Shown here piece by piece: positions 4,047 to 34,090 of a stretch of 41,786 nt of DNA. The notes under the pieces are model-generated. The model was not told the DNA's origin. It saw nothing but the letters and a program-made list of their open reading frames with translations, and made no database searches. Position numbers and translations under genes: made by a program. Origin of the DNA: Spirochaetota bacterium. Lineage in GTDB: Bacteria; Spirochaetota; Spirochaetia; Treponematales; UBA12059. The DNA is taken from positions 88,626 to 130,411 of the forward strand of contig JAKPPT010000092.1 of the NCBI GenBank assembly GCA_029547205.1, in the 5' to 3' direction. Position 1 is the first letter of the stretch; every line of letters starts with the position of its first letter.

Positions 4047-7000
4047 TTATACTCCTTCCTCTATTAGAGCTGGAAATAGTATTTTAAATTTTGTACCGAT
4101 ATCTTTTTTTGTCTCAACATGTATTTCCGCGTTATGTTCTTTAACAATACCATATACTACTGGCAAACCAAGTCCTGTACCGCCCATTTCACGTCTTGTA
4201 GTAAAAAAAGGATCAAAAATAAAAGGTAAAATATCATCCTTAATACCGCATCCTTCATCCTCTACAATCAATACAACACATGACTGATTATTTACTTTTT
4301 CCGCATATGTTTTAACTAATATTTTTTTACTTTTATCAGGCAGTGAATGAATTGCATTTTCAATAAGATTTACTAATATTTGGACTATTTTCATTGCATC
4401 ACCATTTATGTTTGGAATATCTTGTCCTAATTCTAAAACAAAATTAGAGGTCCCATTTTTTATTGTATGATTTAATAAACGTAGTGCATACTCAACAACA
4501 CCATTTATGTTAATTGGCTTTAGCATTTGAGTATTTCCCGTTCGCACATACAACCTTAAATCATCTATTATTTTGCTTATTTGTATTGCACTCATATAAA
4601 TATCGTTAAGCATTTTGGGGAATTCATTTTTTACTTCAGTATACGTAAAACCACCAGAAAATAACTCATCTTGGTTAAATCCAATTTTATCTACTTCTTG
4701 TAATAATCGCTCTCCAACAGCACGAATAATAGGTACATTTCTTAATACTGCATTATTCGGCGTGTTAATTTCATGAGCTATTCCTGCAGTTAGCCATGCA
4801 AGACTTTTTAATTTATCAAGCTCTGATATCCTTTGTTGATTTTCCAATTGGTTTTCTATGCTTTCATTTATTTGAATATGCATTTTTATTCGTGCAATTA
4901 ATTCATAAATATTTATTGGCTTTGTAATAAAATCATCTGCACCAGCTTTAAAAACAGTATCGATATTATCATGCTTCGTTATACTTGTAATAACAATAAT
5001 TGGAATTCTTTTTTTCATTATTTCAAATATTTCTTCAATAAATTCATGCCAATCCATATCGAGCAAGGAATCACTTAAAAGTATAATTTTTGCGTCACCA
5101 TAGTTTTTTAAATAATCAAGCCCTCGATGACCAGAAACAACAGCCTGTACAGTATATCCCATTTTTTCGAGATTTCGTTTTAATGCATATAGAATTATTG
5201 GCTCATCTTCAACAATGAGTACTTTTGTATTTTTATTTTTCATATCTGTTTTTTGATTAAAAGCATAGTCAATTTTATCTTGAGTATATGTATCTGTACT
5301 GGCAGCATCAAAAGACTGTAAAATTTTAATACTAATATTTATAATTTTTTCTTCAATATAAATATCTATTTCCAATTCGGCAAACTTACTTAATGCTAAT
5401 AGCTCCTCTTCATATATTTTTCTGTTTTCTGTATTTTCTAATGATGAATAATTTTTTATATTTTCAGCGGAAATATTAATGATTACATATGGCTTAGATT
5501 CTATTACACTAACAGTTACATCACTCGAACCTGATATTGTATAAACAAATAATATAGCTTTAACAAACAGCCATTCAACTATTTCCTGATCTACCAAAAC
5601 ATCTATATTTATTACTTTTATATCATTTACTTTTATATTGCAATCATAGTATTTAAGATAAGAATTTGCATTGTATAACAACCTGGCTAAATTTATGTAT
5701 TCTCGATTTTTCACTTTATCCAGGACTGCGTACATTTCTGTATATGGCAAATAGTGTCCTAGCTCAATTTTCCATATTGTAGCAAACTTCTTTATATTTT
5801 CTTCATTTGTGCTTCCAACAATATCATCGAGCATTACCATTATTTCTGACACAGGTTTACATAAAAGCCCACGAATTATTTTTAACCTTTGGTGTAATTC
5901 TTTTTCCAACTGATCATATTTTTCAGATAATTTTTCTTCGATATTATTGGCTGAAATCATTATCTTTTTATAGTGAACCCATTCATAATTTTTTAGTATT
6001 AACAATAGAATCGATAACAAAATGCCATAATGTAAAAATCTATGATTAAAAGAAAAGTTTTTATTAAAAAGTGATTCAAGTATATTTACAAATAAAAAAA
6101 CTATACTAGTAATTTGAACTACAAAACCATACTTTTTTGCTATTTCTGTAGTATATTTAAAAGTATTATTATAATATAATACAACTAAAAATAAGATCAT
6201 TATAAATGTAGTAGATAATATTTCAGCTATAAACAGATAACCAGAAAAAATAAGCAGCATAAATATGCTTATCAAAAGCAAACTAGAATGTAACCATTCT
6301 TTATTCATTCGTGATGATATTAATAGTTTTAAAACACAGAATGCAACCCCGCCCGATAAAACCATTATTATTGTTTCAATATAATTCAAATGTAATGAAT
6401 GTATTGAAAAAAAGCCTGTTCTTACAATCAAAATTCCAAAATATGATAATATATAAATAACAATAAAAATATACGCAATAAGTTTTCTATTATCTTTTTT
6501 TTCTAATATTCTTGATATGTTAGAAATTACAATTAATAATATACCCAACCAAATTCCAACTAATAAAAATAGTAATTCCTGCAATTTAACAAAATTATTT
6601 TTATCATATGTAAAGACTCTTATATTACCAGGATCACCTGCAAACTGTAAATATAAGTTATACTCTTTTTCATTTAGTTTTGAAGCAACATCAAGAACTA
6701 TTTTCCTATTGGTATTTTTTAACAACACACTATTATAATCAGATTTTTTTAAAATATTTTTATTGTTTTTATTGATTATATATGCTGATTTTAAAAAGGC
6801 GTTATCAGTATATATCATCAAAACATTGCCTTCAACTTGATCCGATGTCACCTTAATTGAAAGCCAAATATTTTGTGATTTTTTAACAATGTTAAAGTTT
6901 TTAAAGAAAAAATTATCATCTATTCTATTTTTATATAAATATAATGGAATAAAATGTGTAAAATCAGTTTCAAAATTAAGCGAAGCATAAGGTAAATTTA

Positions 7001-7163
7001 TTCCCATTTCCTCATATAGGTATACAGAATATTCTAAATTTTTTCCAATTGTAATCAAATTATCAAAAATCATTAGCAATGAAGCCACTATAATAACAAC
7101 TAGTATTAACAGAAGGTATTTTATTGAAAAAATTACTTCACGATATGATGATTTTTTTTTCAT
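4047..7163 (-). CDS. Hybrid sensor histidine kinase with 7TM-type N-terminus, degenerate kinase-like middle and internal receiver
   Basis: 1038 residues in this apparent order: a membrane helix at about 15-35, an extracytoplasmic segment to about 190, seven or so helices to about 405 (7TMR-DISM-like), a coiled coil, a divergent kinase-like core at about 420-630, a receiver domain at about 645-770, then a canonical HisKA and HATPase module. The catalytic His is H797 in AHEINTP. The N box is NLIENAI near 935 and the G box GGTGLGL near 997. In the receiver the acceptor Asp is replaced by Ser697 (IILLSDSLLDMDW), although the ED pair, Thr and Lys remain. It overlaps the PHP gene by 26 bases and has GAGAGG 6 nt before ATG. 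Base composition is much more AT-rich than the neighbours. It should phosphorylate the regulator encoded just downstream. The signal it senses is unknown. Confidence 0.9.
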   Translation of the reverse strand: MKKKSSYREVIFSIKYLLLILVVIIVASLLMIFDNLITIGKNLEYSVYLYEEMGINLPYASLNFETDFTHFIPLYLYKNRIDDNFFFKNFNIVKKSQNIWLSIKVTSDQVEGNVLMIYTDNAFLKSAYIINKNNKNILKKSDYNSVLLKNTNRKIVLDVASKLNEKEYNLYLQFAGDPGNIRVFTYDKNNFVKLQELLFLLVGIWLGILLIVISNISRILEKKDNRKLIAYIFIVIYILSYFGILIVRTGFFSIHSLHLNYIETIIMVLSGGVAFCVLKLLISSRMNKEWLHSSLLLISIFMLLIFSGYLFIAEILSTTFIMILFLVVLYYNNTFKYTTEIAKKYGFVVQITSIVFLFVNILESLFNKNFSFNHRFLHYGILLSILLLILKNYEWVHYKKIMISANNIEEKLSEKYDQLEKELHQRLKIIRGLLCKPVSEIMVMLDDIVGSTNEENIKKFATIWKIELGHYLPYTEMYAVLDKVKNREYINLARLLYNANSYLKYYDCNIKVNDIKVINIDVLVDQEIVEWLFVKAILFVYTISGSSDVTVSVIESKPYVIINISAENIKNYSSLENTENRKIYEEELLALSKFAELEIDIYIEEKIINISIKILQSFDAASTDTYTQDKIDYAFNQKTDMKNKNTKVLIVEDEPIILYALKRNLEKMGYTVQAVVSGHRGLDYLKNYGDAKIILLSDSLLDMDWHEFIEEIFEIMKKRIPIIVITSITKHDNIDTVFKAGADDFITKPINIYELIARIKMHIQINESIENQLENQQRISELDKLKSLAWLTAGIAHEINTPNNAVLRNVPIIRAVGERLLQEVDKIGFNQDELFSGGFTYTEVKNEFPKMLNDIYMSAIQISKIIDDLRLYVRTGNTQMLKPININGVVEYALRLLNHTIKNGTSNFVLELGQDIPNINGDAMKIVQILVNLIENAIHSLPDKSKKILVKTYAEKVNNQSCVVLIVEDEGCGIKDDILPFIFDPFFTTRREMGGTGLGLPVVYGIVKEHNAEIHVETKKDIGTKFKILFPALIEEGV

Positions 7164-7860
7164 ATAAGACCTCTCTTAAATTTTCAATATTTACATATCC
7201 CTGATTATTTATTAAATTGCATTCTGTATCAATAACAAAATTTCTTCGACCTATTTGTTCTGGATGATGAGCATCAGAATTTTTTATAACTGCAAGCTTC
7301 CCATGATATGATTCTTCTCTGATTACTTCCACAGCATCATAATTACCTTCTGGTAGAAATCCAAGCTGGCTTATTGCACCATAAGCAGGACGATCTATGT
7401 GTGATGGAATAACAATAGCCCCCGCTGCTTTCCCATTTCTGATTACATCATCAAATGACCAATCGGTAGCCATACCAAGATAGTAGTCTAAAATATCAAG
7501 TACATTTTCATGTTCATCAACAACTACTTCTTCTCCAAACATATCAACATTGTATTTTATTTTTGGTTGAACCTTGCTAATTTCATTTGAAAAAATCAAA
7601 GCCTCATCAGGTGTTCCAAAAATACAGAGTATATGTACTTCTTCAATACTGGTCACTTCAATTCCAAAAAGCGGTATTATTCCATATTGTCGAGCATTAA
7701 TATCCCAGGCAGGTGCATTTAATGCAGAATTATGATCAGTCAACGCCATTAAGCCAATACCGCGCGCTTTAGCATGCTCAGCAATAAACCGCGGTGACAT
7801 TTCAAGACTACCACAAGGAGAAAGGCATGAATGATTGTGTAGATCGGCCCGTATTCTCAC
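7138..7860 (-). CDS. PHP-domain metal-dependent phosphoesterase
   Basis: A 240-residue stand-alone PHP protein. The metal-binding residues are intact: DLHNHS near the N-terminus, LTDHN near residue 42, GIEVTSIEEVH, IPSHID and NSDAHH near the C-terminus. The fold hydrolyses phosphoester bonds using two or three metal ions. In the DNA polymerase-associated and YciV-type relatives the substrate is a nucleotide or oligonucleotide, but the substrate here cannot be read from sequence. The gene overlaps the DRTGG gene by four bases (ATGA) and the kinase gene by 26, so the three are translated from one message. PHP proteins of this type are commonly encoded beside DRTGG and ATPase regulators in [FeFe]-hydrogenase loci of anaerobes. 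Confidence 0.9.
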   Translation of the reverse strand: MRIRADLHNHSCLSPCGSLEMSPRFIAEHAKARGIGLMALTDHNSALNAPAWDINARQYGIIPLFGIEVTSIEEVHILCIFGTPDEALIFSNEISKVQPKIKYNVDMFGEEVVVDEHENVLDILDYYLGMATDWSFDDVIRNGKAAGAIVIPSHIDRPAYGAISQLGFLPEGNYDAVEVIREESYHGKLAVIKNSDAHHPEQIGRRNFVIDTECNLINNQGYVNIENLREVLYEKKIIIS

Positions 7861-11531: not shown

Positions 11532-11555
11532 AATAGAAAATATCAAGGAGTAAAC

Positions 11556-12743
11556 ATGCATGCTGATTTTAAGCACACAGATTTTCTCAATGATTTTATA
11601 GCCAGATTCAAAAACAGTACGGAAAAAATCCATGTATTTCGTTCACCTGCAAGAATCAACCTTATTGGTGAGCATATCGATTACAATGGCGGTAAGGTTT
11701 TCCCTGCTGCAATAGACCGCTACCTCTCGATGGCAATTCGCCTTAGAGATGATGACACTATCAACATACAAAATCAGGATATTCAGGGTTCGTGGTCATT
11801 TACCATCCCTCAATTTCATGAAAAACCTTCTGAAGCTTCCTGGATCTCGTATTTGCGGGGCGTATTTCACTATCTATTCAATGGAAAGTGGCCGGATCGA
11901 GGATTTGATGCACTGTTTACCAGTAATGTACCCATGGGCGCAGGTGTTTCATCATCAGCTGCCCTGGAGCTATGTTTTGCATATGGTCTTTCCTGGCTCT
12001 ACAAACTCGAAATTCCGCGGCTCGACCTTGTGCATATCAGCAGAAAAGCAGAACATGAATATGCTGGTGTCCACTGTGGCATAATGGACCAGTATGCTGT
12101 AGCCTTTGGAAAAGCAGAACACGCACTCCTGCTCGATACGAGTGCATGCACTCATACATATGCTCCAGTAAAATTGGGCGACTATGTAATTATGCTCATT
12201 AACACTAATAAGCCTCGGTCTCTTGCAGATTCAAAATACAATGAACGCCTCGAGGAATGCCAGAAAGCACTTACATTGCTCAGGACAATTCCAACTCTAT
12301 CACAGTGCCAGAACCTCTGCGATATACCACCAGATCAGTTTGAACAGCATAAAGCAATACTCAATAATGCTAACCTCGAAAGACGCGTTAGACACTGTAT
12401 TTATGAGAATCAAAGAGTCCTGGCTTCGGTGGATGTACTCAATAAGGGAGACCTCAAAGCATTTGGCAAACTCCTTATCGAAAGCCATATATCGCTCCGA
12501 GAAAACTACGAAGTAACAGGGCTCCATCTCGACACCATATTTGAATCTGCACGTTCGTATGCAGATTGTATTGGCGTACGCATGACCGGTGCTGGTTTTG
12601 GAGGCTGCGCTATTGCCCTTATTAAGAAAACTGCACTAGATGATTTTGCTAGAACTGTAGGATCAGACTATAAATCTAAAACAGGATTAGAAGCAACATT
12701 CTATCCGGTTACAATAGGAGAAGGTGTCCATGAACTTGAATGA
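11556..12743 (+). CDS. galK: Galactokinase
   Basis: ATP-dependent phosphorylation of galactose at C1, first committed step of the Leloir pathway. The protein is 395 residues and shows all GHMP-kinase hallmarks: RSPARINLIGEHIDYNGG near the N-terminus (the galactokinase signature), the ATP-binding PMGAGVSSSAALE, CGIMDQYAVAFG with the catalytic Asp, and MTGAGFGGCAIAL near the C-terminus. I start it at 11556, five bases after AAGGAG, rather than at the upstream end of the open frame (11469), which would precede the promoter. The alpha-galactosidase gene overlaps its last 14 bases. galT and galE are not in the window. Confidence 0.96.
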   Translation: MHADFKHTDFLNDFIARFKNSTEKIHVFRSPARINLIGEHIDYNGGKVFPAAIDRYLSMAIRLRDDDTINIQNQDIQGSWSFTIPQFHEKPSEASWISYLRGVFHYLFNGKWPDRGFDALFTSNVPMGAGVSSSAALELCFAYGLSWLYKLEIPRLDLVHISRKAEHEYAGVHCGIMDQYAVAFGKAEHALLLDTSACTHTYAPVKLGDYVIMLINTNKPRSLADSKYNERLEECQKALTLLRTIPTLSQCQNLCDIPPDQFEQHKAILNNANLERRVRHCIYENQRVLASVDVLNKGDLKAFGKLLIESHISLRENYEVTGLHLDTIFESARSYADCIGVRMTGAGFGGCAIALIKKTALDDFARTVGSDYKSKTGLEATFYPVTIGEGVHELE

Positions 12744-14856
12744 CACATCGATAATCAGCATGTATATTCCAGAAATTACTCTTTCATACATTGAAGCAGG
12801 AACAGGCACTTCAGATGAGCTCAAAGCAGTAACAACAATAAAAATGCCTGCGCATAAACAAACTATAACACAGAATGGTGTACTCATAGCCTTTAATCAA
12901 ATCAGCGTAAAGAATGGTATGCGGTGGCAGGTGTATGTAGAAAATTCAGTTCCAATACTTATTAAAGAACTTTCTATCAAATTTATCCATGGATTCCAAT
13001 CCGGTGAGTATATCTATCTTAATGGGTACCAATCCTGGACGGATTCAATGGAATACCCCCTCAGCCATCGCATGAAGGATCCTTCCCATGCATTGAAACC
13101 CCTATTAAAAAAATATCAGCTTAGTCGATATGGCGACTATACGTTTGTACCCTATTCACGCAAAAAAGGTGTGCTACATGGTTTTTCCTATGCCTACATC
13201 AGACAATCCGACACATGGGCAATTCTGTTTGCAAGCCTCAATGAGGCAAACGGATTTACCATTATAAAAACAAATACTAAGACCGGTGAAGTTACACTAA
13301 TAAAAGATCTCGAAGGAGTACAGTACCAGCATAGTAGCAAACCTTATGCAAATAAACCCGTTATGGATATCTTTATCCAGGAAGGATCAATCGATGAAGT
13401 TTTTAATACATATTTTTCTGCGCTTAACAAACCGAGACTTGCCGCCGAACCATGCACCGGATGGACAAGCTGGTATAACTATTACCAGAATATTTCAGAA
13501 ACTATAATTTTAGATAATCTTAATTCCTTCAAAAAACACAATATTCCAATAAATATTTTCCAAATCGATGATGGTTACCAGACAGCTGTTGGTGACTGGC
13601 TCTCATTAAAGCCAGAATTTTCCCAGGGCATGCGATACCTGGCAACTGCAATTCGAGAAGCAGGATATACTCCCGGGTTATGGCTTGCTCCGCTTGTATG
13701 TGAAACTAAATCAAAAATCTTTGAGGAGCATCAGGATTGGCTCATGCGAAACAGCCATGGTTCCATAATCTCATGCGGTGGTAACTGGTCTGGTTTTTAC
13801 ACACTCGATTTTTATAAACCAGAAGTACGTGCATATCTTAAAAAAGTATTCGATATAGTACTCAATGATTGGGGCTTTGAGCTCGTTAAATTAGACTTTT
13901 TATACGCCGCATGTATTGAACCTGTTTACGGAAAGAGCCGCGGAGAACTCATGGAAGATGCAATGCTGTTTTTGAGAGAGCTTGTTGGCAATAAAAAGAT
14001 ACTTGGGTGCGGTGTTCCGCTCTGGCATGCATTTGGTAAAGTAGAATTCTGTAGAATTGGTCCTGATATTGATTTACAGTGGGACAATAAGCTTTATAGA
14101 AAAATAGCACACCGCGAACGGCCATCGACCCTTAACGCCATTCAAAATACAATTGGCAGATACCATCTCGATCGGCTTGCATTTATCAATGATCCTGATG
14201 TGTTTTTGCTCCGCAGTACTAATTTAAAATTGAGTAAACACGAAAAATTTACACTGATTCTTGCAAACACAACACTTGGGAATGTCTTATTTACATCGGA
14301 CAATCTTTCTGAGTATACAGAAGATCAATGGAAATTGTATCTTTCCATTTTTCCTCATAGCGCAAAAAAAATTAATGCTATAAGAAAACGCGGTAAAATT
14401 ACAGAAGTGAATTTCTCAATAGACACGAAACAGTATACAGCACTATTCAATACAACCGAACATAAACATGATATATTTATTGATAAACCATGTTTTGTGC
14501 GGACACCCGATGGCTGGTTCTGGATTCATGATACCATGCTGACAATTCCAGCCCACAGCAGTGTTTGCCTCTTCTACCCAAACAATGAACCTGTGAGTGT
14601 AATTGGCACTACTTGCTCACTGTATGCAGGATCAGAAATTACAAACTTCTCCTATACAATTAGAGACAAACAGGCAATACTCACCATAGAAATCAACCCT
14701 AAAACATTAGGAAGCGGTAAACTGTTTATACGGGTACCTCAAGAAATAGAGTCTGTACAGTACAAAAACGAGAACCTCATACCACAAAAGCAAGCATGGT
14801 ACACAGGCAAAGGGAAACTCGTAACAATTGAGATTCCCTCCAAAATCATTTCATGA
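12730..14856 (+). CDS. Alpha-galactosidase, glycoside hydrolase family 36
   Basis: Hydrolyses terminal alpha-1,6-galactose from melibiose, raffinose-type sugars or galactolipids. 708 residues, normal for GH36, with an N-terminal beta domain and a catalytic barrel from about 230. Motifs seen are GWTSWYNYYQN, IFQIDDGYQ, LVKLDFLYAA with the nucleophile D389, and RIGPDIDLQW with the likely acid/base at D446. No signal peptide is evident, so the enzyme is probably cytoplasmic and needs an importer encoded elsewhere. The ATG at 12730 has AGGAG about 9 nt upstream and lies inside the end of galK, so released galactose can be phosphorylated by the product of the overlapping gene. Confidence 0.94.
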   Translation: MNLNDTSIISMYIPEITLSYIEAGTGTSDELKAVTTIKMPAHKQTITQNGVLIAFNQISVKNGMRWQVYVENSVPILIKELSIKFIHGFQSGEYIYLNGYQSWTDSMEYPLSHRMKDPSHALKPLLKKYQLSRYGDYTFVPYSRKKGVLHGFSYAYIRQSDTWAILFASLNEANGFTIIKTNTKTGEVTLIKDLEGVQYQHSSKPYANKPVMDIFIQEGSIDEVFNTYFSALNKPRLAAEPCTGWTSWYNYYQNISETIILDNLNSFKKHNIPINIFQIDDGYQTAVGDWLSLKPEFSQGMRYLATAIREAGYTPGLWLAPLVCETKSKIFEEHQDWLMRNSHGSIISCGGNWSGFYTLDFYKPEVRAYLKKVFDIVLNDWGFELVKLDFLYAACIEPVYGKSRGELMEDAMLFLRELVGNKKILGCGVPLWHAFGKVEFCRIGPDIDLQWDNKLYRKIAHRERPSTLNAIQNTIGRYHLDRLAFINDPDVFLLRSTNLKLSKHEKFTLILANTTLGNVLFTSDNLSEYTEDQWKLYLSIFPHSAKKINAIRKRGKITEVNFSIDTKQYTALFNTTEHKHDIFIDKPCFVRTPDGWFWIHDTMLTIPAHSSVCLFYPNNEPVSVIGTTCSLYAGSEITNFSYTIRDKQAILTIEINPKTLGSGKLFIRVPQEIESVQYKNENLIPQKQAWYTGKGKLVTIEIPSKIIS

Positions 14857-24419: not shown

Positions 24420-25106
24420 TTAATACCAGACTCTGATATTTTCTCCAACAATCCCGGGATGCGCGCCTTTTTCGATAAGCGGTTTCCGTTCCGGATGAGC
24501 GATAAGCCACTTGTTTTTCATAAACAAAAGACGTTCCTCTGTGACAGTATCGCTTCCAGACTGCTCATATGTAAAACTTTCGAGCGGCAGATTTGTTCCT
24601 TTAGGCAAAATTATCAACGACTTAAACCCTCTATCGTCTGTTTTGCATGGACTTAAATGCAATGTACCGGGCATGAGTTCAAAACATGATCCCCGATTAA
24701 GATAGAGCGCTTTTGCTTTTTTGCTCTCAAACTGATACCTGGCATCAATATCACTCTGTAACCCTAAGAGCAAAACCTGGTCGGTCACTGCTACTATAAT
24801 CTCATTAGACTTGTGATACTCCATGCCATTCATTGTACTATTAGGTCCTGCAACCCATCCAATTTGTATTTCTATTCCACCAAAGTAACTCATAAATAGC
24901 TTTCTATTTTCTGGGGTATCAAGCACAGGGTCGCTCGCAACATACGTATTCTGATCTGAATTGATAACAATCTGACGGTCAGCCTGTTCTATTAACGCAT
25001 CAATACCAGCAATCGTAAGGTGTTTTCCATAGCGCGTCAGTGCGCTATGATTATCATTTAAAAATTCGAGATGACAATTTTTTGCTTTTATTGTTTCGTA
25101 ACTCAT
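24420..25106 (-). CDS. DUF4867-like protein (possible sugar isomerase)
   Basis: 228 residues, no signal peptide or membrane helix. The middle is cupin-like: GMEYHKSNEIIVAV, then the run YLNRGSCFELMPGTLHLSPC with His and Glu that could bind a metal, then GFKSLIILPKGTN. This resembles the DUF4867 family, which I assign from sequence pattern and memory, not from a search. It is the last gene of the GH31/transketolase operon, 46 bases after the exporter gene, with AAGGGG before its ATG. A sugar or sulfo-sugar aldose-ketose isomerase would complete the pathway suggested by its neighbours; that function is inferred. Confidence 0.6.
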   Translation of the reverse strand: MSYETIKAKNCHLEFLNDNHSALTRYGKHLTIAGIDALIEQADRQIVINSDQNTYVASDPVLDTPENRKLFMSYFGGIEIQIGWVAGPNSTMNGMEYHKSNEIIVAVTDQVLLLGLQSDIDARYQFESKKAKALYLNRGSCFELMPGTLHLSPCKTDDRGFKSLIILPKGTNLPLESFTYEQSGSDTVTEERLLFMKNKWLIAHPERKPLIEKGAHPGIVGENIRVWY

Positions 25107-25152: not shown

Positions 25153-25878
25153 TTATAAAATCATTATAATTCCAGTTGCGAGCAGCATACTGAACACAAT
25201 GATACTGAAGGTTCTTGCATTTACTTTATGATGCAAAGCTTCACCTATAATAATTCCGCCAATTAAAAAAGGAATTGCAGCACCTAAATCGATAAAGCTC
25301 TGCATTGAAAATCGACCCTTGAGTATATACGTTACAATAATGATTGTATTGAGCGTTGACCATAATACGCAGAGCGATGCTCTAAACTGTGATTTGTCCT
25401 TAATTGCTCCTGATGCATACAGTACAACAAACGGCCCACCCGATGAAAACATGCCATGCACAATACCTCCTGCAAAGAGGAGCAGATACCCTGCCCAGCG
25501 AGGGAGCACTGTCCTGTCGGTTTTAAGCACCAGCAATTTAATTAGCTGAATAGCTGCTGAAACAATTATAAAACTGGCAAGTATTTTTTTTATAACGGCT
25601 GCATCAATTATATTGAAAAGGTAAATACCAAACGGCAGCCCCATCAATACAAAAAGCAATATAACTGCAAGCTCTTTCCATGCAATATGTTTTATGTTTT
25701 TAATCACAATATACAATGCCAGAATCCACGCTAAAATTGTGAGGAGCAGTATACCTCTTGTCATACCCAGTAGCGCTGTAACAAACGGAAGAGCAAGCAC
25801 AGTGCAACCAAACCCGGTAACTGCTTCAAGTGCATGCGTAATGAGTACAACAATACCGCTCAGAATAAGCTCTAGCAT
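25153..25878 (-). CDS. TauE/SafE-family sulfonate/sulfite exporter-like membrane protein
   Basis: 241 residues with about seven or eight predicted membrane helices and two related halves, as in the TauE/SafE family. Recognisable pieces are the N-terminal GFGCTVLALPFV and the second-half GIVHGMFSSGGPFVVLYA repeat motif. Members export organosulfonates or sulfite, or act as general anion exporters. The start overlaps the dehydrogenase gene by 7 bases. In sulfonate-degrading clusters such an exporter removes the C2 or C3 sulfonate end product. Here that would be isethionate or a similar compound, which is inferred from the operon. Confidence 0.87.
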   Translation of the reverse strand: MLELILSGIVVLITHALEAVTGFGCTVLALPFVTALLGMTRGILLLTILAWILALYIVIKNIKHIAWKELAVILLFVLMGLPFGIYLFNIIDAAVIKKILASFIIVSAAIQLIKLLVLKTDRTVLPRWAGYLLLFAGGIVHGMFSSGGPFVVLYASGAIKDKSQFRASLCVLWSTLNTIIIVTYILKGRFSMQSFIDLGAAIPFLIGGIIIGEALHHKVNARTFSIIVFSMLLATGIIMIL

Positions 25879-27065
25879 ATTTTTTTCTCCAGAAGATCGT
25901 ATACCGTTTTTTCATCCGGCAAGGGTAAGGTGTTTTTCATTTTTGGATCATCAAACGAACGCGCAAAAAGTTTTTCGATTTCGTTTCGTGTTATCGTAAT
26001 ATTCATATCCTTAAACGTAAAAGGAAGATTCATCTTTTTCTTTGTTCGTACTATTGTGTCATAGAGCATGGCAAGTGCGCTTTCTCCTTTCGTAACAGGG
26101 AAGATATACTCTGCAAGCGCAATGAGCCGTTCTTTTACTGCTTCATACTGTGATACAAACATAAAACAATCTTCGAGCGTGAACGCACATGCCTTGCCGT
26201 GCGGCACGTGCCATTCTTCACCAAGTATAAATGATATTGCATGTCCCATAGCCGTACCGGTAATACTAAATGCCATGCCAGCCATACATGCTGCTTCTGT
26301 CATGCTAAGCGCACGGTCATACAAAGCTGAAGAATCAAGGTTTATGGTGCCGGTCAATGCATCATAGAGTGGTTCAAAGTTTTCCAGAACTGCACGTGCC
26401 GCACGTGCTGATGCTCTTAGTGTTGCAGGTGTCGCATTTTTATTCCAGACAGATTCAAGCGCATGAGAAAGCGCATCAAATCCTGTTGCTGCACAGAGCG
26501 CTGGCGGCATTCCTGCAGTGAGCTCTCCTATAAGTACTGCTGTATCAGCAAAGAGCGGTGGTGAGCCAACAGTATGCTTTCGATTTCCTGTATCCCTATA
26601 AACACCCACTCTGGTTACTTCAGAACCTGTCCCTGCTGTTGTTGGTATCAACACGAGCGGAAATTTTCGTGCACTTGCTGAACTGCCAGCCTTCCCGGAA
26701 AAAAACTCATCAGGATTAAGCGTATTGCCGTAGAGCATTGATACAGCTTTAGCACTATCGAGCACGCTGCCACCACCAATACCAATGAATATATCGGGAT
26801 TTCCGCACTCTGGCAGCATGCTGATGATATCTTCTGTTAAAGGATCCGGCTGCACTCTCGTTAATACAGTAAGTTCATATTTACTGCGCAATTTTTCTAT
26901 CAGTTTTTCACGTGCAGGAACCTGGTATGGATCACTTATTACACATATTCGTTCTACAGGTTTTTTTGCAGTAAACAATAAAACATCATTCAGTGTATCC
27001 ATATCAATGGTTTTCATAGAAACCACACGAACTGGCGACATGAGATTTTGTACAGAGAGATCCAT
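25872..27065 (-). CDS. Iron-type (group III) alcohol dehydrogenase, candidate sulfoacetaldehyde reductase
   Basis: 397 residues, normal for the family. The nucleotide-binding GGGSVLDSAKA and IPTTAGTGSEVT are in the N-terminal half. The metal site is formed by Asp in GFDALSHALE and His residues in GTAMGHAIS and HVPHGKACAF. Such enzymes reduce aldehydes with NADH. Sulfoacetaldehyde reductases of isethionate-producing anaerobes belong to this family. Placement between an RpiB-type isomerase and a TauE-type exporter supports that role, but other aldehydes (lactaldehyde, glycolaldehyde) are possible. The next gene starts inside its end, indicating tight coupling. Confidence 0.85.
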   Translation of the reverse strand: MDLSVQNLMSPVRVVSMKTIDMDTLNDVLLFTAKKPVERICVISDPYQVPAREKLIEKLRSKYELTVLTRVQPDPLTEDIISMLPECGNPDIFIGIGGGSVLDSAKAVSMLYGNTLNPDEFFSGKAGSSASARKFPLVLIPTTAGTGSEVTRVGVYRDTGNRKHTVGSPPLFADTAVLIGELTAGMPPALCAATGFDALSHALESVWNKNATPATLRASARAARAVLENFEPLYDALTGTINLDSSALYDRALSMTEAACMAGMAFSITGTAMGHAISFILGEEWHVPHGKACAFTLEDCFMFVSQYEAVKERLIALAEYIFPVTKGESALAMLYDTIVRTKKKMNLPFTFKDMNITITRNEIEKLFARSFDDPKMKNTLPLPDEKTVYDLLEKKIC

Positions 27066-27102: not shown

Positions 27103-27576
27103 TTATTTAAAATTTTTCTCTTCGAGAGCAACGACCTGGTTAAACGCATTTGTGAGGAATTCCTTCTTAAATTCCATCTTTTGTGTAAATGACATTGCAA
27201 GCCAGGCGTCGACTATTTCTTTTGCAAGGAAAGGAGCTGTCACCCAACCTCCCATGGTGATGACATTGGCATTGTTAATAATTTTTGCACGTTCTCCAGA
27301 AAAAATATCGGTCACTACACATGCATAAATTCCTTTGTGCTTATTGGCAACAATAGCCATTCCCTGACCCGTTCCGCAGATAAGAATACCCTTTTCTGCT
27401 TTTCCTTCCTGAATTGCACGAGCAACAAGTGGTGCCTGCTCAAAATATGGCTTTGGCTGATCCTCTGACGGTATACCAAAATCCAGTACTTCAATACCCG
27501 GTTTTGATTGAAGATGTGCAACGAGTTCCTTTTTAAGTGGAAATCCTGATAAATCTGATGCTATTGCTATTTTCAT
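27103..27576 (-). CDS. RpiB/LacA/LacB-family sugar isomerase
   Basis: 157 residues from the ATG at 27576, set by AAGGAG 8 nt upstream. Motifs include the N-terminal IAIASDLSGFPLKKELV and the anion-hole segment GILICGTGQGMAIVANKHKG with the Cys expected to act as base. The fold isomerises phosphorylated C4-C6 sugars. Ribose-5-phosphate and galactose-6-phosphate are the usual substrates, and in the sulfo-transketolase pathway a relative isomerises 4-sulfoerythrose to sulfoerythrulose. The usual DCA[AG]HAGF-like N-terminal site is replaced by SDLSGF, hinting at a different substrate. It lies between transketolase and dehydrogenase genes. Confidence 0.87.
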   Translation of the reverse strand: MKIAIASDLSGFPLKKELVAHLQSKPGIEVLDFGIPSEDQPKPYFEQAPLVARAIQEGKAEKGILICGTGQGMAIVANKHKGIYACVVTDIFSGERAKIINNANVITMGGWVTAPFLAKEIVDAWLAMSFTQKMEFKKEFLTNAFNQVVALEEKNFK

Positions 27577-27659
27577 AGTATATGCTCCTTTTATGCTCTT
27601 TGTTGCATAAATAGGCAATTCTTAACAGATTGCCTATTTTGTTCAAGTTACTATACTGG

Positions 27660-28595
27660 TTATTTTTTAAGAACTTCTCGTATTCGCTGTACAATATCCT
27701 CGCCACGTAGCTTAAAGCGCTCGAGAAGATATGCCTCTGTCCCAACTTCACCAAACTCATCGTTGATACCGACACGCACCAACCGGGGGCCACCCTGTTC
27801 TGCAATTATTTCTGCAACAGCAGAACCAAGTGCTCCGTTGATCTGGTGGTTCTCTGCTGTCACGACAAGCTTTTTCCCCTGCATCGCCAAAGCAATAGTT
27901 TCGCGGTCAAATGGCTTGAGCGACAACGCATCAACTACTGCAGCATCAATTCCAAATTCTGCGAGCATTGCATGTGCTCGCAGGCTTTCGCGAACCATAA
28001 GACCGCCCAGCGCTACAATACAAATATCGTTTCCGTTTTTAAGCAGCTTTGCTTTGCCGATTTCAAATTGCTCCGATGCATCATAAATTGGTTCAAGTGC
28101 TTTGCGGTGCAATCTGAGATATGCACTGTTTTTTCTTTCTGCAAGTTTTTTAACAAGCGCTTTTAAGGAAACCGGATCCGAAGGCTCAACAATATCAATC
28201 TGCGGTACAGCACGCATGATAGCAAGGTCTTCAAACGGCATGTGCGTTCCGCCATTAAATGCAGCAGATACACCAGGGTCTGTCCCCACCAATTTTACGT
28301 TGAGTTTTGCATAGGCACAGGAAATAAAAAACTGATCGAGCGCTCTTCGTGCTGCGAAACAACCAAAGGTTGCTGCAAACGGTATTTTCCCTTCTGCAGA
28401 TAATCCTCCTGCAACGCTCAGCATGTTTGATTCTGCTACGCCAACATTGATAGCACGATCGGGAAATTTTTCTTTGAATACACCGGTACCGGTAGCCTTC
28501 ATGAGATCAGCCTCAAGAATGACGATATCTGGATTTTTTTCAGCAAGTTCAATAAGTGTCTCTGCATATACTGCGCGCATTTCTGGTGTTGCCAT
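27660..28595 (-). CDS. Transketolase, C-terminal subunit
   Basis: 311 residues covering the pyrimidine-binding and C-terminal domains of transketolase. Glu in INVGVAESNMLSVAGGLS activates thiamine diphosphate, and GTHMPFEDLAIMRAVP and VVTAENHQINGALGSAVAE are characteristic. It pairs with the upstream subunit; the start codon shares one base with that gene's stop, so a 1:1 complex is likely. Split transketolases are widespread in anaerobes and archaea, but this pair belongs to a catabolic operon rather than a pentose-phosphate locus. In the sulfo-transketolase route such a pair (SqwGH) moves two-carbon units from sulfofructose and then sulfoerythrulose to glyceraldehyde 3-phosphate. Confidence 0.93.
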   Translation of the reverse strand: MATPEMRAVYAETLIELAEKNPDIVILEADLMKATGTGVFKEKFPDRAINVGVAESNMLSVAGGLSAEGKIPFAATFGCFAARRALDQFFISCAYAKLNVKLVGTDPGVSAAFNGGTHMPFEDLAIMRAVPQIDIVEPSDPVSLKALVKKLAERKNSAYLRLHRKALEPIYDASEQFEIGKAKLLKNGNDICIVALGGLMVRESLRAHAMLAEFGIDAAVVDALSLKPFDRETIALAMQGKKLVVTAENHQINGALGSAVAEIIAEQGGPRLVRVGINDEFGEVGTEAYLLERFKLRGEDIVQRIREVLKK

Positions 28596-29422
28596 CAGCG
28601 TGCCTCCTTTAGTTTTGCAATAGCTTCTGCTGCTTTTGCAGCATCAAATGTCATATTGTGGCTTCCAAGGCTGCCTTCACAAAAACTTGCGCCTTTACCC
28701 TTAATGGTATCAAGAATTATCATGGTAGGTTTTCCGGTATGCTGCTTTGCTTCTGTAATTGCGTTGTCAATTGCTTCCACATCATGACCATTAACACGGA
28801 GCACATGCCAGCCAAAACTTTTCCATTTTCCCTCAATATCCCCCAGATCGTTTATCTCATGCGTCATACCATCTATTTGCATTTTATTGTAATCGGTGAA
28901 TGCAATGAGCGAATCTAATTTCTGTTGGGCGGCGAACATTGCAGCTTCCCAGACCTGTCCCTCATTCGATTCTCCATCACCGATAATTGCAAAAACTTTT
29001 GCATTATTTTTATTCATACGCAAAGCGAGCGCTATACCAGATGCTGCAGATAGCCCCTGCCCCAATGATCCAGTAGTCATATCAATACCAGGTGTTCGAT
29101 TTCTGTCACAGTGGCTCGGAAGATTAGTTCCACCGCGGTTAAGCGTATATAACATATCTTTGGGGAAAAATCCGCGGTATGCAAGTGTGCTGTACAAAGC
29201 CGGACCAGCATGTCCTTTTGAGAGGACAAGCCTATCCCGTCCGTCCCAGCGTGGCTGCTTTGGATCGTGTCTTAGATGCTTCATATACAGAACAGTGAGC
29301 ACTTCAACAATTGACATTGCACCGCCAATATGTCCCACCCCAAGATTGCCAATTGCGTCGATTGTCAATATTCGTATATCGCACGCAGCATCTTCAAGAT
29401 GCTTTTTTTCTTCTGAAGTCAT
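28595..29422 (-). CDS. Transketolase, N-terminal (thiamine-diphosphate-binding) subunit
   Basis: 275 residues forming the pyrophosphate-binding domain. The motif GDGESNEGQVWEAAMFAAQQ carries the GDG...N signature that holds the magnesium and diphosphate. SKGHAGPALYS near residue 69 and GSLGQGLSAASGIALA are standard transketolase elements. The ATG has AAGGAG 6 nt upstream, and the gene lies 42 bases after the GH31 gene. With the partner subunit it makes a complete enzyme. Chromosomes usually have another transketolase for central metabolism, so a dedicated copy here fits a specialised substrate. Confidence 0.94.
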   Translation of the reverse strand: MTSEEKKHLEDAACDIRILTIDAIGNLGVGHIGGAMSIVEVLTVLYMKHLRHDPKQPRWDGRDRLVLSKGHAGPALYSTLAYRGFFPKDMLYTLNRGGTNLPSHCDRNRTPGIDMTTGSLGQGLSAASGIALALRMNKNNAKVFAIIGDGESNEGQVWEAAMFAAQQKLDSLIAFTDYNKMQIDGMTHEINDLGDIEGKWKSFGWHVLRVNGHDVEAIDNAITEAKQHTGKPTMIILDTIKGKGASFCEGSLGSHNMTFDAAKAAEAIAKLKEAR

Positions 29423-29464: not shown

Positions 29465-31474
29465 TTATAATTTACTAACCTGTTCAAACAATGTCCTCCA
29501 CGATGTTCCTTCCCGGAAAAATACCGGTGGATACCCTAGCGGAGCATCAACAACCGCTAAACCGCTCTTATAAACTTTTCCTGTCCATAAGTGTACCCAT
29601 GTGTCATCCGGTAACCAGACACGTTTACGCTTTTTCCCTCTCTGTATCACGGGAGCGACAAGGAGATCTCTCCCATAGAGATATTCATAACCATTCTGCC
29701 AATTTTTGTTTTCAAGTGGATAGTGCATAAAGAGTGGCCGGATATAAGGAAGGCCTGTATGCTGATATTCTTCGCGCAAGGCTATTGCATAGGGCTGTAA
29801 TGCTCTGTAGATTTTAGAACATCGAGCGGTAAATGATGCCAAATCATCATCGAGGTATGGCTGTGCATTCACGCCCGGACGATTGCCTTCATGTGACCGC
29901 ATGACCGGCATGAATATGCCAAGTTCTGTCCATCGTTTGAGTAATTCACGAGAACGCTTCACCCAACCAACGGTTGTGTATCCTCCGATATCAGCATGGA
30001 ATTGACCCACACCGCATAGACCAAGCGAAAGCGCTGCAGGAATGATGCTCGGAAGACCATCATCTTTATACCAGTTTACGAGTTGATCCCCTGCCCAAAA
30101 TGCTGGAGCATAACGCTGACTTTCTGAATAACCAGCCCTGCAAAAAAAGAACACTTCATTGGCTTTTCCAGCTTCCTCGACTGCCTCATAGTTTACTTTT
30201 GCCCAGAGTGCAGGATACCTGTTATGGACAAGTTCTGGTGACTCTCCCGAATACAGCACAGCATCGGTTGGCATATACTCACCAAAATCAGCCATCCATC
30301 CAGATAGTCCAATACCAATCATATATTTTTTAATTATTTCCTTAATCCAGGAAACTGCTCCTGGATTTGTTAAATCCAGGAGCGCAGCCGGAAACGTTGT
30401 TATTGTTACTAAATAATCACTTCCATCTTTCTTTTTAACACAATAGCCCTTTAACGATGCTTCTTTATAAAGACTTCCTTCCAGCGCAAGAAATGTATTG
30501 ATATACCCAAGCACACGGATTCCCTTTTGCTTGAGTTCTGCAATTGTTTTTTCAAGGTGCGGATAGAGCTCATCATTCTGCATCCAGTTCCAGAACAGCT
30601 GAGAACCAAAAGAAGTAACACGTTTTCCTTCCCAATCCTGTATCCACAGTCCAGAAAGCGCTGCTTGAGCCTTTTCAAGTTTTGATAGTTTATCGAGAAC
30701 GCTCTCTGTACCGCCCTGAGCACCTAAAATAAATCCATCAAATACCCAATCAGGGAGTTTTGGCTGAATACCCAGATTTTTTACAACTGCAGAAACCAGC
30801 TCGGTCATCTGTTTTTTTGCAATAATCTTTATTGTACGCGGAACCTGCCAGAATTCCAGGCGTGTAAATTTTTTATGACTAAAATCGAACAGGCTATATG
30901 CATCTGTATCTGCAATCACCGCATAATGTCGCGAAGAGATAAAAACCGGCATGGCATAATAGGTAGTAAATTTATTCCCGCCAGCTCCATGTGCTGCAAT
31001 ATCAGCAGCATATTTCATTGCGTTAAAACCTCTCCCAACACCCTGTTCCTGCACCCATATTGGCACCTTTTTCCCACGAAGGTTAAAATAACTATACTGT
31101 TCCCCGCACCCATACACATATTCATCGGGAAGTGCTTCCAGGTTCACTACAACTCGATTGTATGCCCCATTGGAAACAAAGGATATGACAAGCATATCAT
31201 CAATATCTTCAATAATAAGAGTTCCAAATTGCTTTGATACAAGCTCAATTTTATTTTCATTTTTTTTACTTGCTGACCAGTCTGTAATTGGTTTTATCAT
31301 ACGGTTTTGTTCCTGTATTGTGAACATACCATGTGATATTGAATACCGGGCTGCACCAGTACCAGCTGCAAAAAATGGTTTTTTTCGCGTATTATTTATA
31401 AAGGGTAATCCCTTATACACTATAGAAAATGTGCTCTGCTCACTCCCATCATGTACCAGTACCAGGTTGCTCAT
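29465..31474 (-). CDS. yihQ: GH31 glycosidase of the YihQ (sulfoquinovosidase) type, with Arg-to-Gln change in the sulfonate site
   Basis: 669 residues, cytoplasmic. Similarity to E. coli YihQ as I recall it extends along the whole barrel with a constant offset of nine residues: nucleophile D396 (GWMADFGEYMPTD; D405 in YihQ) and acid/base D463 (WAGDQLVNW; D472). Of the five residues that grip the sulfoquinovose sulfonate in YihQ, Q253, Q279, W295 and Y499 match Q262, Q288, W304 and Y508. R301 is replaced by Q292 in the segment TSFGSQLFWNW. The enzyme should cleave an alpha-glycoside; whether the sugar is sulfonated is uncertain. The ATG at 31474 overlaps the upstream gene's TGA and has GGGAG 8 nt before it. 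Confidence 0.85.
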   Translation of the reverse strand: MSNLVLVHDGSEQSTFSIVYKGLPFINNTRKKPFFAAGTGAARYSISHGMFTIQEQNRMIKPITDWSASKKNENKIELVSKQFGTLIIEDIDDMLVISFVSNGAYNRVVVNLEALPDEYVYGCGEQYSYFNLRGKKVPIWVQEQGVGRGFNAMKYAADIAAHGAGGNKFTTYYAMPVFISSRHYAVIADTDAYSLFDFSHKKFTRLEFWQVPRTIKIIAKKQMTELVSAVVKNLGIQPKLPDWVFDGFILGAQGGTESVLDKLSKLEKAQAALSGLWIQDWEGKRVTSFGSQLFWNWMQNDELYPHLEKTIAELKQKGIRVLGYINTFLALEGSLYKEASLKGYCVKKKDGSDYLVTITTFPAALLDLTNPGAVSWIKEIIKKYMIGIGLSGWMADFGEYMPTDAVLYSGESPELVHNRYPALWAKVNYEAVEEAGKANEVFFFCRAGYSESQRYAPAFWAGDQLVNWYKDDGLPSIIPAALSLGLCGVGQFHADIGGYTTVGWVKRSRELLKRWTELGIFMPVMRSHEGNRPGVNAQPYLDDDLASFTARCSKIYRALQPYAIALREEYQHTGLPYIRPLFMHYPLENKNWQNGYEYLYGRDLLVAPVIQRGKKRKRVWLPDDTWVHLWTGKVYKSGLAVVDAPLGYPPVFFREGTSWRTLFEQVSKL

Positions 31475-32787
31475 TCTATAATCTCCCACTTCTTTATTTT
31501 TGCAAGAATTTTGAACGGTTTCATGTAATGTCCATATACCATTGAAGCGTGGTGAGCAATGCCATTATCAATGACTGTTTGCAATACGTCTGCAACTGGC
31601 TTTTTGAAAACAGCTTTAACATATGAACCTTTTAAGAGCTGCTGCATGGGGACAGCTGTGCCTTCCTGTAAAAAGAGCCGCCACTTCCCACGTGCCGCAT
31701 CAAGCCGTGCCACCGAAAAATCACCCGTTCGGAGCACAAAATCTGCAGTGACCCCCTTGCCGCCGGCAAAATAGCTATCCAGCCTGCATTTCGATGTCTT
31801 ATCCCACAGATTGCATGGCGCAACTCCACAGTGCCAGAGCAATGCAGTGTTTTCTTTCAGGTCAACCTGCGAAAAATCAAACAGAAATGGAGTTTCCCCA
31901 CCTACGGCCTGGTGCATGAGCATAGAGATAGCGCCTTCAACATCGCCCTCACATGCTAGTATTCTTCCTTCCGACTGGAGTAATGACATCGCTGCACAGG
32001 GCGATATTCCATAGTCGCGAGCAAATTCCGGCCAGCAGCGTATTGCAAGCGAGTCTGTCCCTGTTCGTGTACAAAACGCATCAATACTGGCAGCAAGGCC
32101 AGCCACCTTATCGAGCTGTGCTTCCGATATATCGCGAACATCAAAGGCTGCTTTGAGCTGTTCCTTTCGTCGTTTTACTTCTTCCAAAGATGCTGGCTCG
32201 TTGTATATTTCTGAAAGCTCATAGTGATCGATTAATATGCCTGTCTGTGCAAAGAGCTGCGGATCAGATACCGTAAGATTAAAGAACCCATGTGCACGGT
32301 ATCCTGCTATACCCAGTCTTGTTTGTTTGAGTCGAGCAATCACGCGAATTGCATCAATCCAATTCTCATCGATTTCGTCTCCAACAATAGCATGATACTC
32401 ATCAACACCCGCTTTGTATAAGTTTGATGCATTTAAGTTTACGCCACACACAGAATTGAGCCGTATTTTCCCACCATCATATGGTAGTTCATTCATTCCC
32501 CAGAGCAGTATTGGAACTCTCACCGCTTTGTAGAGATCAAGTGCCAGGTGTCCAAGATGGAACGTGCCAGAAATACAGACAAGTCCATCTATATTCTCTC
32601 GCGCAAGCATTTCTGCAGCTTTTTTCCCATCTTCAATGCTGATGACGAGATCTGGTACAATTACCCAGGTTACTGCAGGTATCTTTTGTACCTTTTCCTT
32701 TAGCGTTCCATATATCGATTTTGCTGCATTAAAATCAAACGTCTCTCGAGCAAGGCATACAAGACCGAGTTTTACAGGATATTTCAT
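31471..32787 (-). CDS. L-fucose/L-arabinose-isomerase-like protein
   Basis: 438 residues related to the FucI/AraA superfamily. The N-terminal part has Rossmann-like repeats with IDGLVCISGTFHLGHLALDL and VPILLWGMNELPYDG. The C-terminal part has SLLQSEGRILACEGDVEGAISMLMHQAVGG, in which Glu and Asp resemble the metal ligands of the isomerases, and LWHCGVAPCNL with the third ligand His. It is shorter than true FucI (about 590). Aldose-ketose isomerisation of a 6-deoxy or 6-sulfo hexose is plausible. AGGAGGT precedes the ATG at 32787 and a promoter lies at 32815-32843. It is the first catabolic gene after the repressor. Confidence 0.75.
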   Translation of the reverse strand: MKYPVKLGLVCLARETFDFNAAKSIYGTLKEKVQKIPAVTWVIVPDLVISIEDGKKAAEMLARENIDGLVCISGTFHLGHLALDLYKAVRVPILLWGMNELPYDGGKIRLNSVCGVNLNASNLYKAGVDEYHAIVGDEIDENWIDAIRVIARLKQTRLGIAGYRAHGFFNLTVSDPQLFAQTGILIDHYELSEIYNEPASLEEVKRRKEQLKAAFDVRDISEAQLDKVAGLAASIDAFCTRTGTDSLAIRCWPEFARDYGISPCAAMSLLQSEGRILACEGDVEGAISMLMHQAVGGETPFLFDFSQVDLKENTALLWHCGVAPCNLWDKTSKCRLDSYFAGGKGVTADFVLRTGDFSVARLDAARGKWRLFLQEGTAVPMQQLLKGSYVKAVFKKPVADVLQTVIDNGIAHHASMVYGHYMKPFKILAKIKKWEIIE

Positions 32788-32814
32788 GGCACCTCCTATT
32801 ATTTTCACAAAGTA

Positions 32815-32938: not shown

Positions 32939-34090
32939 TCAGGATAAGAGATGTTCAATTACAAGTTTTGCAGCACCGAGCAGTGCATGTTCAGGATTAT
33001 AGACAGTAGCTTGTAGCGCAAAATCTCCATCATCAAAGATTGATGTACATCCCTCAAGTTTCTTTTGTACTGCATTACAAAGTAGCTCGGAAAATTCTTT
33101 ATTTCCGGTCATCAATAAAAATAAATGCGGATCAAAAAGCCGCCGTATAGATTGCACTGCAGAGGCAAAAACATCGATAAGTTCGTTAAAAAGCTTCGTG
33201 TTTTCCTTAAGCGCTGTTATATCAGCGTAGTACGGTTCAAACAGCCAATCATTACCAGAATGGTTATCGAGCTTACTAATTACTGCTTCCAGACAGCCCT
33301 GTGCACCACAGGAACACCGTTCTGTATTTGAAAAAATTGGAATATGCCCAAACTCAATAGTTTTATTGTTTTTAAATACAAATGGCGTTCGATTTTGAAT
33401 AAATACGCCATTAATACCACGACGTACTATCATAAGAAACAAGGATTCTTGTATTGGATACTGTTCAGCAGCCTGCATACCAAGAACAGCACAGTTGTTA
33501 TGAATAAATGCAGGTATAGAACAAGCTGCTTCAATGTGCTCACAGAGTGGGAAATTATTGATTCCGGTGATTCCAGGGTAGTGCATAATGCTGCGTGATT
33601 CTAAATCAACCTGTCCTGGGGCACCGATACCAACACCCAGTACCTGCTCACTGGCGATACCAGCATCTGCAATGAGCTTTTTTATTGAAGCAATAATAGT
33701 TTCTAATACGTGTTCTACAGTATGTGTTGTAAAATTTTGAGTCAGTACTTGCTTCTGTTCACCCGTTAAATCAAAAAGCCCTGCATAGAGGTGATTCTCC
33801 CAAAAATCAACACCAATCGTAAAAAAAGTATTAGGTCGTATTTGATACAGGACTGGTTTCCGGCCTTTCTTTTTAACAGTTTCAGGTAACTCTTCAGGTT
33901 TACCGCTCATTTCGATATAGTTCAATCGTTCCAGATTATTAAAAATACGAAATACTGTCGGTGCTTTAAGTCCTGTTTTGGTAACAATATCAGACTGCGC
34001 AATGCCTTCAGCACCTGCCATAAGAATCATTCGCAAAACTAACTTCTCGTTATGCTCTCGAATGTCAGAAGATCTAATTGGTGTATACAT
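32939..34090 (-). CDS. ROK-family transcriptional repressor
   Basis: 383 residues. A winged helix at about 1-80 (GIAQSDIVTKTGLKAPTVFRIFNNL) is followed by a ROK sugar-binding domain with VGVGIGAPGQVD, IEFGHIP and the zinc site CSCGAQGCLEA. The usual ATP phosphate loop DxGGT is replaced by GVDFWENHLYAG, so it is a regulator and not a sugar kinase. It heads the minus-strand cluster and probably represses it until a pathway sugar binds. A TTTACA/TACAAT promoter would start transcription within a base or two of the ATG, and no Shine-Dalgarno sequence is seen, so the message may be leaderless. Confidence 0.92.
   Translation of the reverse strand: MYTPIRSSDIREHNEKLVLRMILMAGAEGIAQSDIVTKTGLKAPTVFRIFNNLERLNYIEMSGKPEELPETVKKKGRKPVLYQIRPNTFFTIGVDFWENHLYAGLFDLTGEQKQVLTQNFTTHTVEHVLETIIASIKKLIADAGIASEQVLGVGIGAPGQVDLESRSIMHYPGITGINNFPLCEHIEAACSIPAFIHNNCAVLGMQAAEQYPIQESLFLMIVRRGINGVFIQNRTPFVFKNNKTIEFGHIPIFSNTERCSCGAQGCLEAVISKLDNHSGNDWLFEPYYADITALKENTKLFNELIDVFASAVQSIRRLFDPHLFLLMTGNKEFSELLCNAVQKKLEGCTSIFDDGDFALQATVYNPEHALLGAAKLVIEHLLS

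Follow-up and report, generated by a model that had tools for sequence, protein, structure and literature searches.

A YihQ-type GH31 glycosidase with glutamine at the position of the sulfonate-site arginine in a spirochaete sulfo-transketolase operon

A sulfo-transketolase operon with a YihQ-type glycosidase

The window, a 41,786-nucleotide stretch of contig JAKPPT010000092.1 from a Spirochaetota bacterium, holds an operon whose genes, from a ROK regulator to a DUF4867 protein, all lie on one strand:

32939..34090, minus strand: ROK/NagC-type transcriptional regulator (domain/profile search)
31471..32808, minus strand: predicted SQ isomerase from a divergent, second subfamily of SftI-like proteins (NF048012, 206.7 bits, cut-off 700)
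29465..31474, minus strand: GH31 YihQ-type glycosidase gene (ATG start; the ORF extends to a GTG at 31489)
28595..29422, minus strand: SqwG-like transketolase N-terminal subunit (PF00456)
27660..28595, minus strand: SqwH-like transketolase C-terminal subunit (PF02779 and PF02780)
27103..27618, minus strand: SqwI-like RpiB-family isomerase, 4-deoxy-4-sulfoerythrose isomerase (PF02502)
25872..27065, minus strand: SqwF-like iron alcohol dehydrogenase, sulfoacetaldehyde reductase (PF00465)
25153..25878, minus strand: SqwE-like TauE/SafE exporter, isethionate (PF01925)
24420..25106, minus strand: SftX/SqvB-like DUF4867 protein (PF16161)

With a split transketolase (SqwG and SqwH), SqwI, SqwF and SqwE, the operon contains the full sulfo-transketolase (sulfo-TK) gene set. 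In this pathway isethionate is formed via SqwGH, SqwI and SqwF (PMC9594981), SqwE is the isethionate exporter (PMC11659671), and DUF4867 is known from sulfo-TK clusters (PMC11968277). The split transketolase, RpiB-family isomerase, iron alcohol dehydrogenase, TauE exporter, DUF4867 and GH31, united in one operon, are common to the window and the sulfo-TK system of Clostridium sp. MSTE9 and rumen bacteria (PMC9594981, PMC13219744). The window differs from that system in its divergent isomerase subfamily, in a GH31 with glutamine at the position of YihQ Arg301 (Gln-type, as opposed to Arg-type) and in the lack of an SQ importer gene in the operon, so that uptake would have to be encoded elsewhere. 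A Faecalispora jeddahensis cluster (L085) has a counterpart for every gene of the window operon and an Arg-type GH31, and L216, from another spirochaete that belongs to the same order, combines the sulfo-TK set with a Gln-type GH31 and an MFS transporter. Full sulfo-TK sets were found with either residue (Gln in the window and L216, Arg in L030 and L085). The sulfoglycolytic character assigned to the operon in the initial annotation is hence upheld by a complete gene set that recurs elsewhere.

The ATG of the GH31 gene at 31474 overlaps the stop codon of the upstream gene as ATGA. The protein carries the Pfam domains PF01055 and PF21365 and scored 826 bits against the NCBIfam YihQ model PRK10426.1 (cut-off 553). 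Its AlphaFold model (mean pLDDT 91.7) matched the structures of the E. coli, A. tumefaciens and E. rectale enzymes and BmSQase with TM-scores of 0.94–0.97, and the next-best GH31 structure was the xylosidase YicI (0.72), in good agreement with the original assignment as a YihQ-type enzyme. Fold and catalytic Asp pair are shared with the sulfoquinovosidases (SQases) YihQ (5AED), AtSQase (5OHS/5OHY), SftG (6PNR) and BmSQase (8R56), at 40–43% identity. The window genome encodes only one GH31 of the YihQ kind, and a search of viral contigs returned a single distant relative.

Residue 301 and the coupled position 366

Residues are numbered from the ATG at 31474; from the GTG at 31489, the start given by ORF prediction, Gln292 becomes Gln297. 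The following sites were placed by alignment with YihQ:

30716..30718, minus strand: Gln253 (YihQ Q262), sulfonate-site residue kept (sequence alignment)
30638..30640, minus strand: Gln279 (YihQ Q288), sulfonate-site residue kept (sequence alignment)
30599..30601, minus strand: Gln292 codon, aligned with YihQ Arg301 (phmmer alignment)
30590..30592, minus strand: Trp295 (YihQ W304), sulfonate-site residue kept (sequence alignment)
30383..30406, minus strand: loop TITTFPAA (T357-A364), aligned with YihQ EFGEFYGG (366-373) (alignment)
30287..30289, minus strand: Asp396, nucleophile (YihQ D405) (sequence alignment)
30086..30088, minus strand: Asp463, acid/base (YihQ D472) (sequence alignment)
29978..29980, minus strand: Tyr499 (YihQ Y508), sulfonate-site residue kept (sequence alignment)

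The triplet at 30599-30601 reads CTG on the plus strand and CAG, encoding glutamine, on the minus strand, where 30584-30610 translates as FGSQLFWNW. The phmmer alignments of the window GH31 with 5AED, 6PNR, 8R56 and 5OHY are gap-free around the site and show arginine in all four structures; together with the occurrence of the same residue in relatives, this rules out that the site is misaligned or that the reading frame is locally wrong. Nor does the residue stem from chance or faulty sequencing, because the same column is glutamine in 58 of 157 non-redundant relatives. The initial annotation was therefore correct in placing Gln292 at the position of Arg301 with a constant offset of nine residues, and in reporting the nucleophile, the acid/base and four of the five sulfonate-contact residues as preserved.

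The 157 relatives are those that keep the other sulfonate-site residues, drawn from a sample of 100 first loci that was then extended to 166 non-redundant sequences plus references. They comprise 99 Arg-types (98 QQRWY, 1 KERWY) and 58 Gln-types (QQQWY). The sulfonate-site signature of SQases is QQRWY or KERWY, with residues read from the sequences of solved structures, and YihQ Q262, Q288, R301, W304 and Y508 reportedly take part in sulfonate binding (SQase papers of 2016 and 2018). Mutation of YihQ R301 reportedly causes a strong drop in activity. The window GH31, reading QQQWY, retains four of the five signature residues; at positions 262/288 it has Gln/Gln like the other solved SQases, in contrast to Lys/Glu in AtSQase. 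It differs from the solved SQases in Gln for Arg301, a neutral residue for Asp/Glu366 and TITTFPAA for EFGEFYGG. As one sequence feature of the characterised SQases is lacking, we call the protein YihQ-type with predicted SQase activity.

The possibility raised at the outset that a neighbouring residue supplies the arginine found no support in the alignment, in which no column was basic in all Gln-types yet absent from the Arg-types; the best candidate for a compensating basic residue, column 145, reached 0.78 in Gln-types vs 0.32 in Arg-types. However, 17 of the 58 Gln-types carry Lys at position 366, where the window has Thr (T357).

Nor is the exchange at 301 a single change, as had been assumed, since Asp/Glu at YihQ 366 goes with Arg301. 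Position 366 is acidic in all 99 Arg-types but in only one of the 58 Gln-types (L148), the sharpest acid/non-acid split between the two types outside 301. The surrounding loop, 366-374, changes as a block, and the segment reads [DE]FGEF in most Arg-types vs xITTFP in most Gln-types. A spirochaete Arg lineage (L127, L129, L130, L131 and L027) sits beside the Gln-types, separate from other Arg-types; it has Arg301 and Asp366, yet keeps Thr-Thr at 367-368. Its sister, L125, is a Gln-type with Val366. Fixed differences between L125 and this lineage occupy 72 of 666 columns, six of which gain an acid, 366 included, and the probability of a chance gain exactly at 366 is therefore about 1%. A tree inferred with these columns excluded shows a minimum of two changes at residue 301, each accompanied by the matching change at 366; two independent changes at 301 are too few for a coupling test on the tree to reach significance. 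The sequence pattern suggests that an Arg301-Asp/Glu366 salt bridge has been exchanged as a unit, with Gln in place of the arginine and an uncharged residue or Lys in place of the acid, and Lys366 in the 17 Gln-types could offer a positive charge from the other side.

Distribution and gene neighbourhoods of the two types

Gln-types come from spirochaetes and Bacillota, and in the tree a supported, Clostridia-rich Gln clade (26 rows) includes the sampled Clostridia loci that carry a ruminant label. A study of the cow rumen detected transcripts of sulfo-TK genes while SQ was being degraded by Ca. Limivicinus and a Sphaerochaetaceae species, both of which encode YihQ, and it links YihQ proteins of Ca. 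Limivicinus, Neosphaerochaeta and Mariniplasma to the breakdown of SQ there (PMC13219744). Some genomes carry both types: they lie side by side in L029 (3767-5773 and 7953-9974) and occur together in G011 (L122 Gln, L123 Arg), G407 (L132 Gln, L133 Arg) and G280 (L151 Gln, L152 Arg), a co-residence that could hint at divided labour.

Neighbourhoods were compared at loci whose flanks add up to 8 kb or more and scored by the presence of two or more specific sulfoglycolysis genes. Of the Arg-types, 64 of 75 had such genes beside them; of the Gln-types, 26 of 39 did, a modestly lower frequency (Fisher p = 0.03, relatedness ignored), and at least one carbon-skeleton enzyme was encoded near 66/75 and 31/39, respectively. 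The neighbours of Gln-types are sulfo-TK and sulfo-transaldolase genes, and those of Arg-types are these plus sulfo-EMP genes. Relatives that have lost other sulfonate-site residues were beside sulfoglycolysis genes in none of 11 cases (QQQWF 0/5; ERRWD, KELWY, EQQWY, QQQWN and others 0/6). Hence, absence of the pathway tracks the loss of, for example, Tyr508 and not the exchange of Arg301 for Gln.

These counts lend no support to two earlier expectations, namely that the glutamine alone decides how the operon is read and that it indicates a glucoside, whether plain, 6-deoxy or 6-O-substituted: both types share pathway neighbours, and both occur with full sulfo-TK sets. Most Gln-types have sulfoglycolytic neighbours (the 26 of 39 above). 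One Gln subclade (L153, L154, L155, L156, L157 and L161) has extended N-termini and hardly any sulfoglycolysis genes in its vicinity, and it contributes to the neighbourhood difference between the types. Transporters and a chemotaxis gene surround L154. At L200, two QQQWF GH31 genes (5163-7172 and 11548-13557, Phe at Tyr508) flank ABC transporter genes; no sulfoglycolysis enzymes were found around them, and they probably act on another substrate. A characterised Gln clade with a different substrate was not found, all SQases in the PDB being Arg-type. Our searches likewise returned no assayed Gln-type enzyme, and no report on R301 variants in the literature searched.

The isomerase encoded next to the window GH31 aligns with the SftI family over its whole length, and its close members score 186-232 bits against the same NCBIfam model with its cut-off of 700. 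This subfamily shares about 25% identity with the SftI type, and a PDB search with the window protein gave no match. Residues E287, D289, D311, H326, H420, R257, R368 and R377 are kept in both subfamilies, which never occur in one locus (26 loci for the window subfamily vs 48). The group, which takes the place of SftI at 26 sulfoglycolytic loci, may represent a second subfamily of SQ isomerases that is as yet undescribed. The window subfamily accompanies 14 Arg-type and 11 Gln-type loci, the SftI type 31 and 18, with no association between isomerase subfamily and residue 301 (p = 0.62), the pattern predicted if the two GH31 types release one and the same sugar.

Probable function of the glutamine-type pocket

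We consider it likely (probability roughly 0.78) that the window GH31 is an SQase with an alternative sulfonate pocket, which cleaves SQ-glycerol inside the cell and feeds the sulfo-TK operon, with isethionate as predicted end product. SQ would stem from plant or algal sulfolipid; sulfoquinovosyl glycerol would be cleaved intracellularly by the window GH31, and the freed SQ would enter the pathway of the operon. In the characterised SQases Arg301 would be held by Asp/Glu366, whereas the window GH31 and about a third of its relatives combine Gln301 with Lys or an uncharged residue at 366, and the Gln amide would join Trp304 and Tyr508 in neutral hydrogen bonds to the sulfonate. The initial annotation had already allowed that a glutamine might hydrogen-bond a sulfonate, and we agree. 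A comparable case is an unrelated enzyme family in which a subgroup with sulfosugar gene clusters also has a natural variant at a sulfonate-contact position; a backbone contact is kept there, whereas the GH31 Gln-types lose a charged side chain.

A shifted preference among SQases, for other SQ glycosides or a broader range, is a tentative alternative, in which Gln-types would share the work with Arg-types in some genomes. The genomes that hold both types and the block-wise change of loop 366-374 fit this idea; on the other hand, the window genome, like many Gln-type genomes, has a sole GH31 of the YihQ kind, which must therefore be a general SQase there, if it is an SQase. That the enzyme has ceased to be an SQase and acts on glucosides or another 6-substituted alpha-glycoside appears unlikely to us. 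The only ionic contact to the sulfonate is lost and some Gln-types are without pathway neighbours, but a complete sulfo-TK operon surrounds the window GH31, Trp304, Tyr508, Gln262 and Gln288 are all kept, and Gln-types retain pathway neighbours where lineages without Tyr508 or other site residues do not. Slightly less probable still is an operon for a different sulfosugar, such as an SQ stereoisomer, to which the glutamine would be matched: the distance of the window isomerase from the characterised-type SftI would agree with it, but the presence of that same isomerase subfamily beside both Arg- and Gln-types argues against it.

The glutamine of the window SQase candidate thus recurs in nature as a variant coupled to a second, co-varying residue, and the sulfoglycolytic reading of the operon stands. 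We lean, by a narrow margin, towards regarding enzymes with Gln301 and a non-acidic residue 366 as a second natural class of GH31 SQases with arginine-free sulfonate recognition, comprising about a third of the sampled family, in which 301 and 366 are exchanged as a unit. The paired 301/366 exchange makes it easy to probe by mutation how a sulfonate can be bound in a neutral pocket. Arginine at 301 serves as a hallmark in the annotation of GH31 SQases; if the Gln-types are active, a call based on this motif would overlook roughly a third of the family as sampled here, among them the genes from ruminant-labelled Clostridia.
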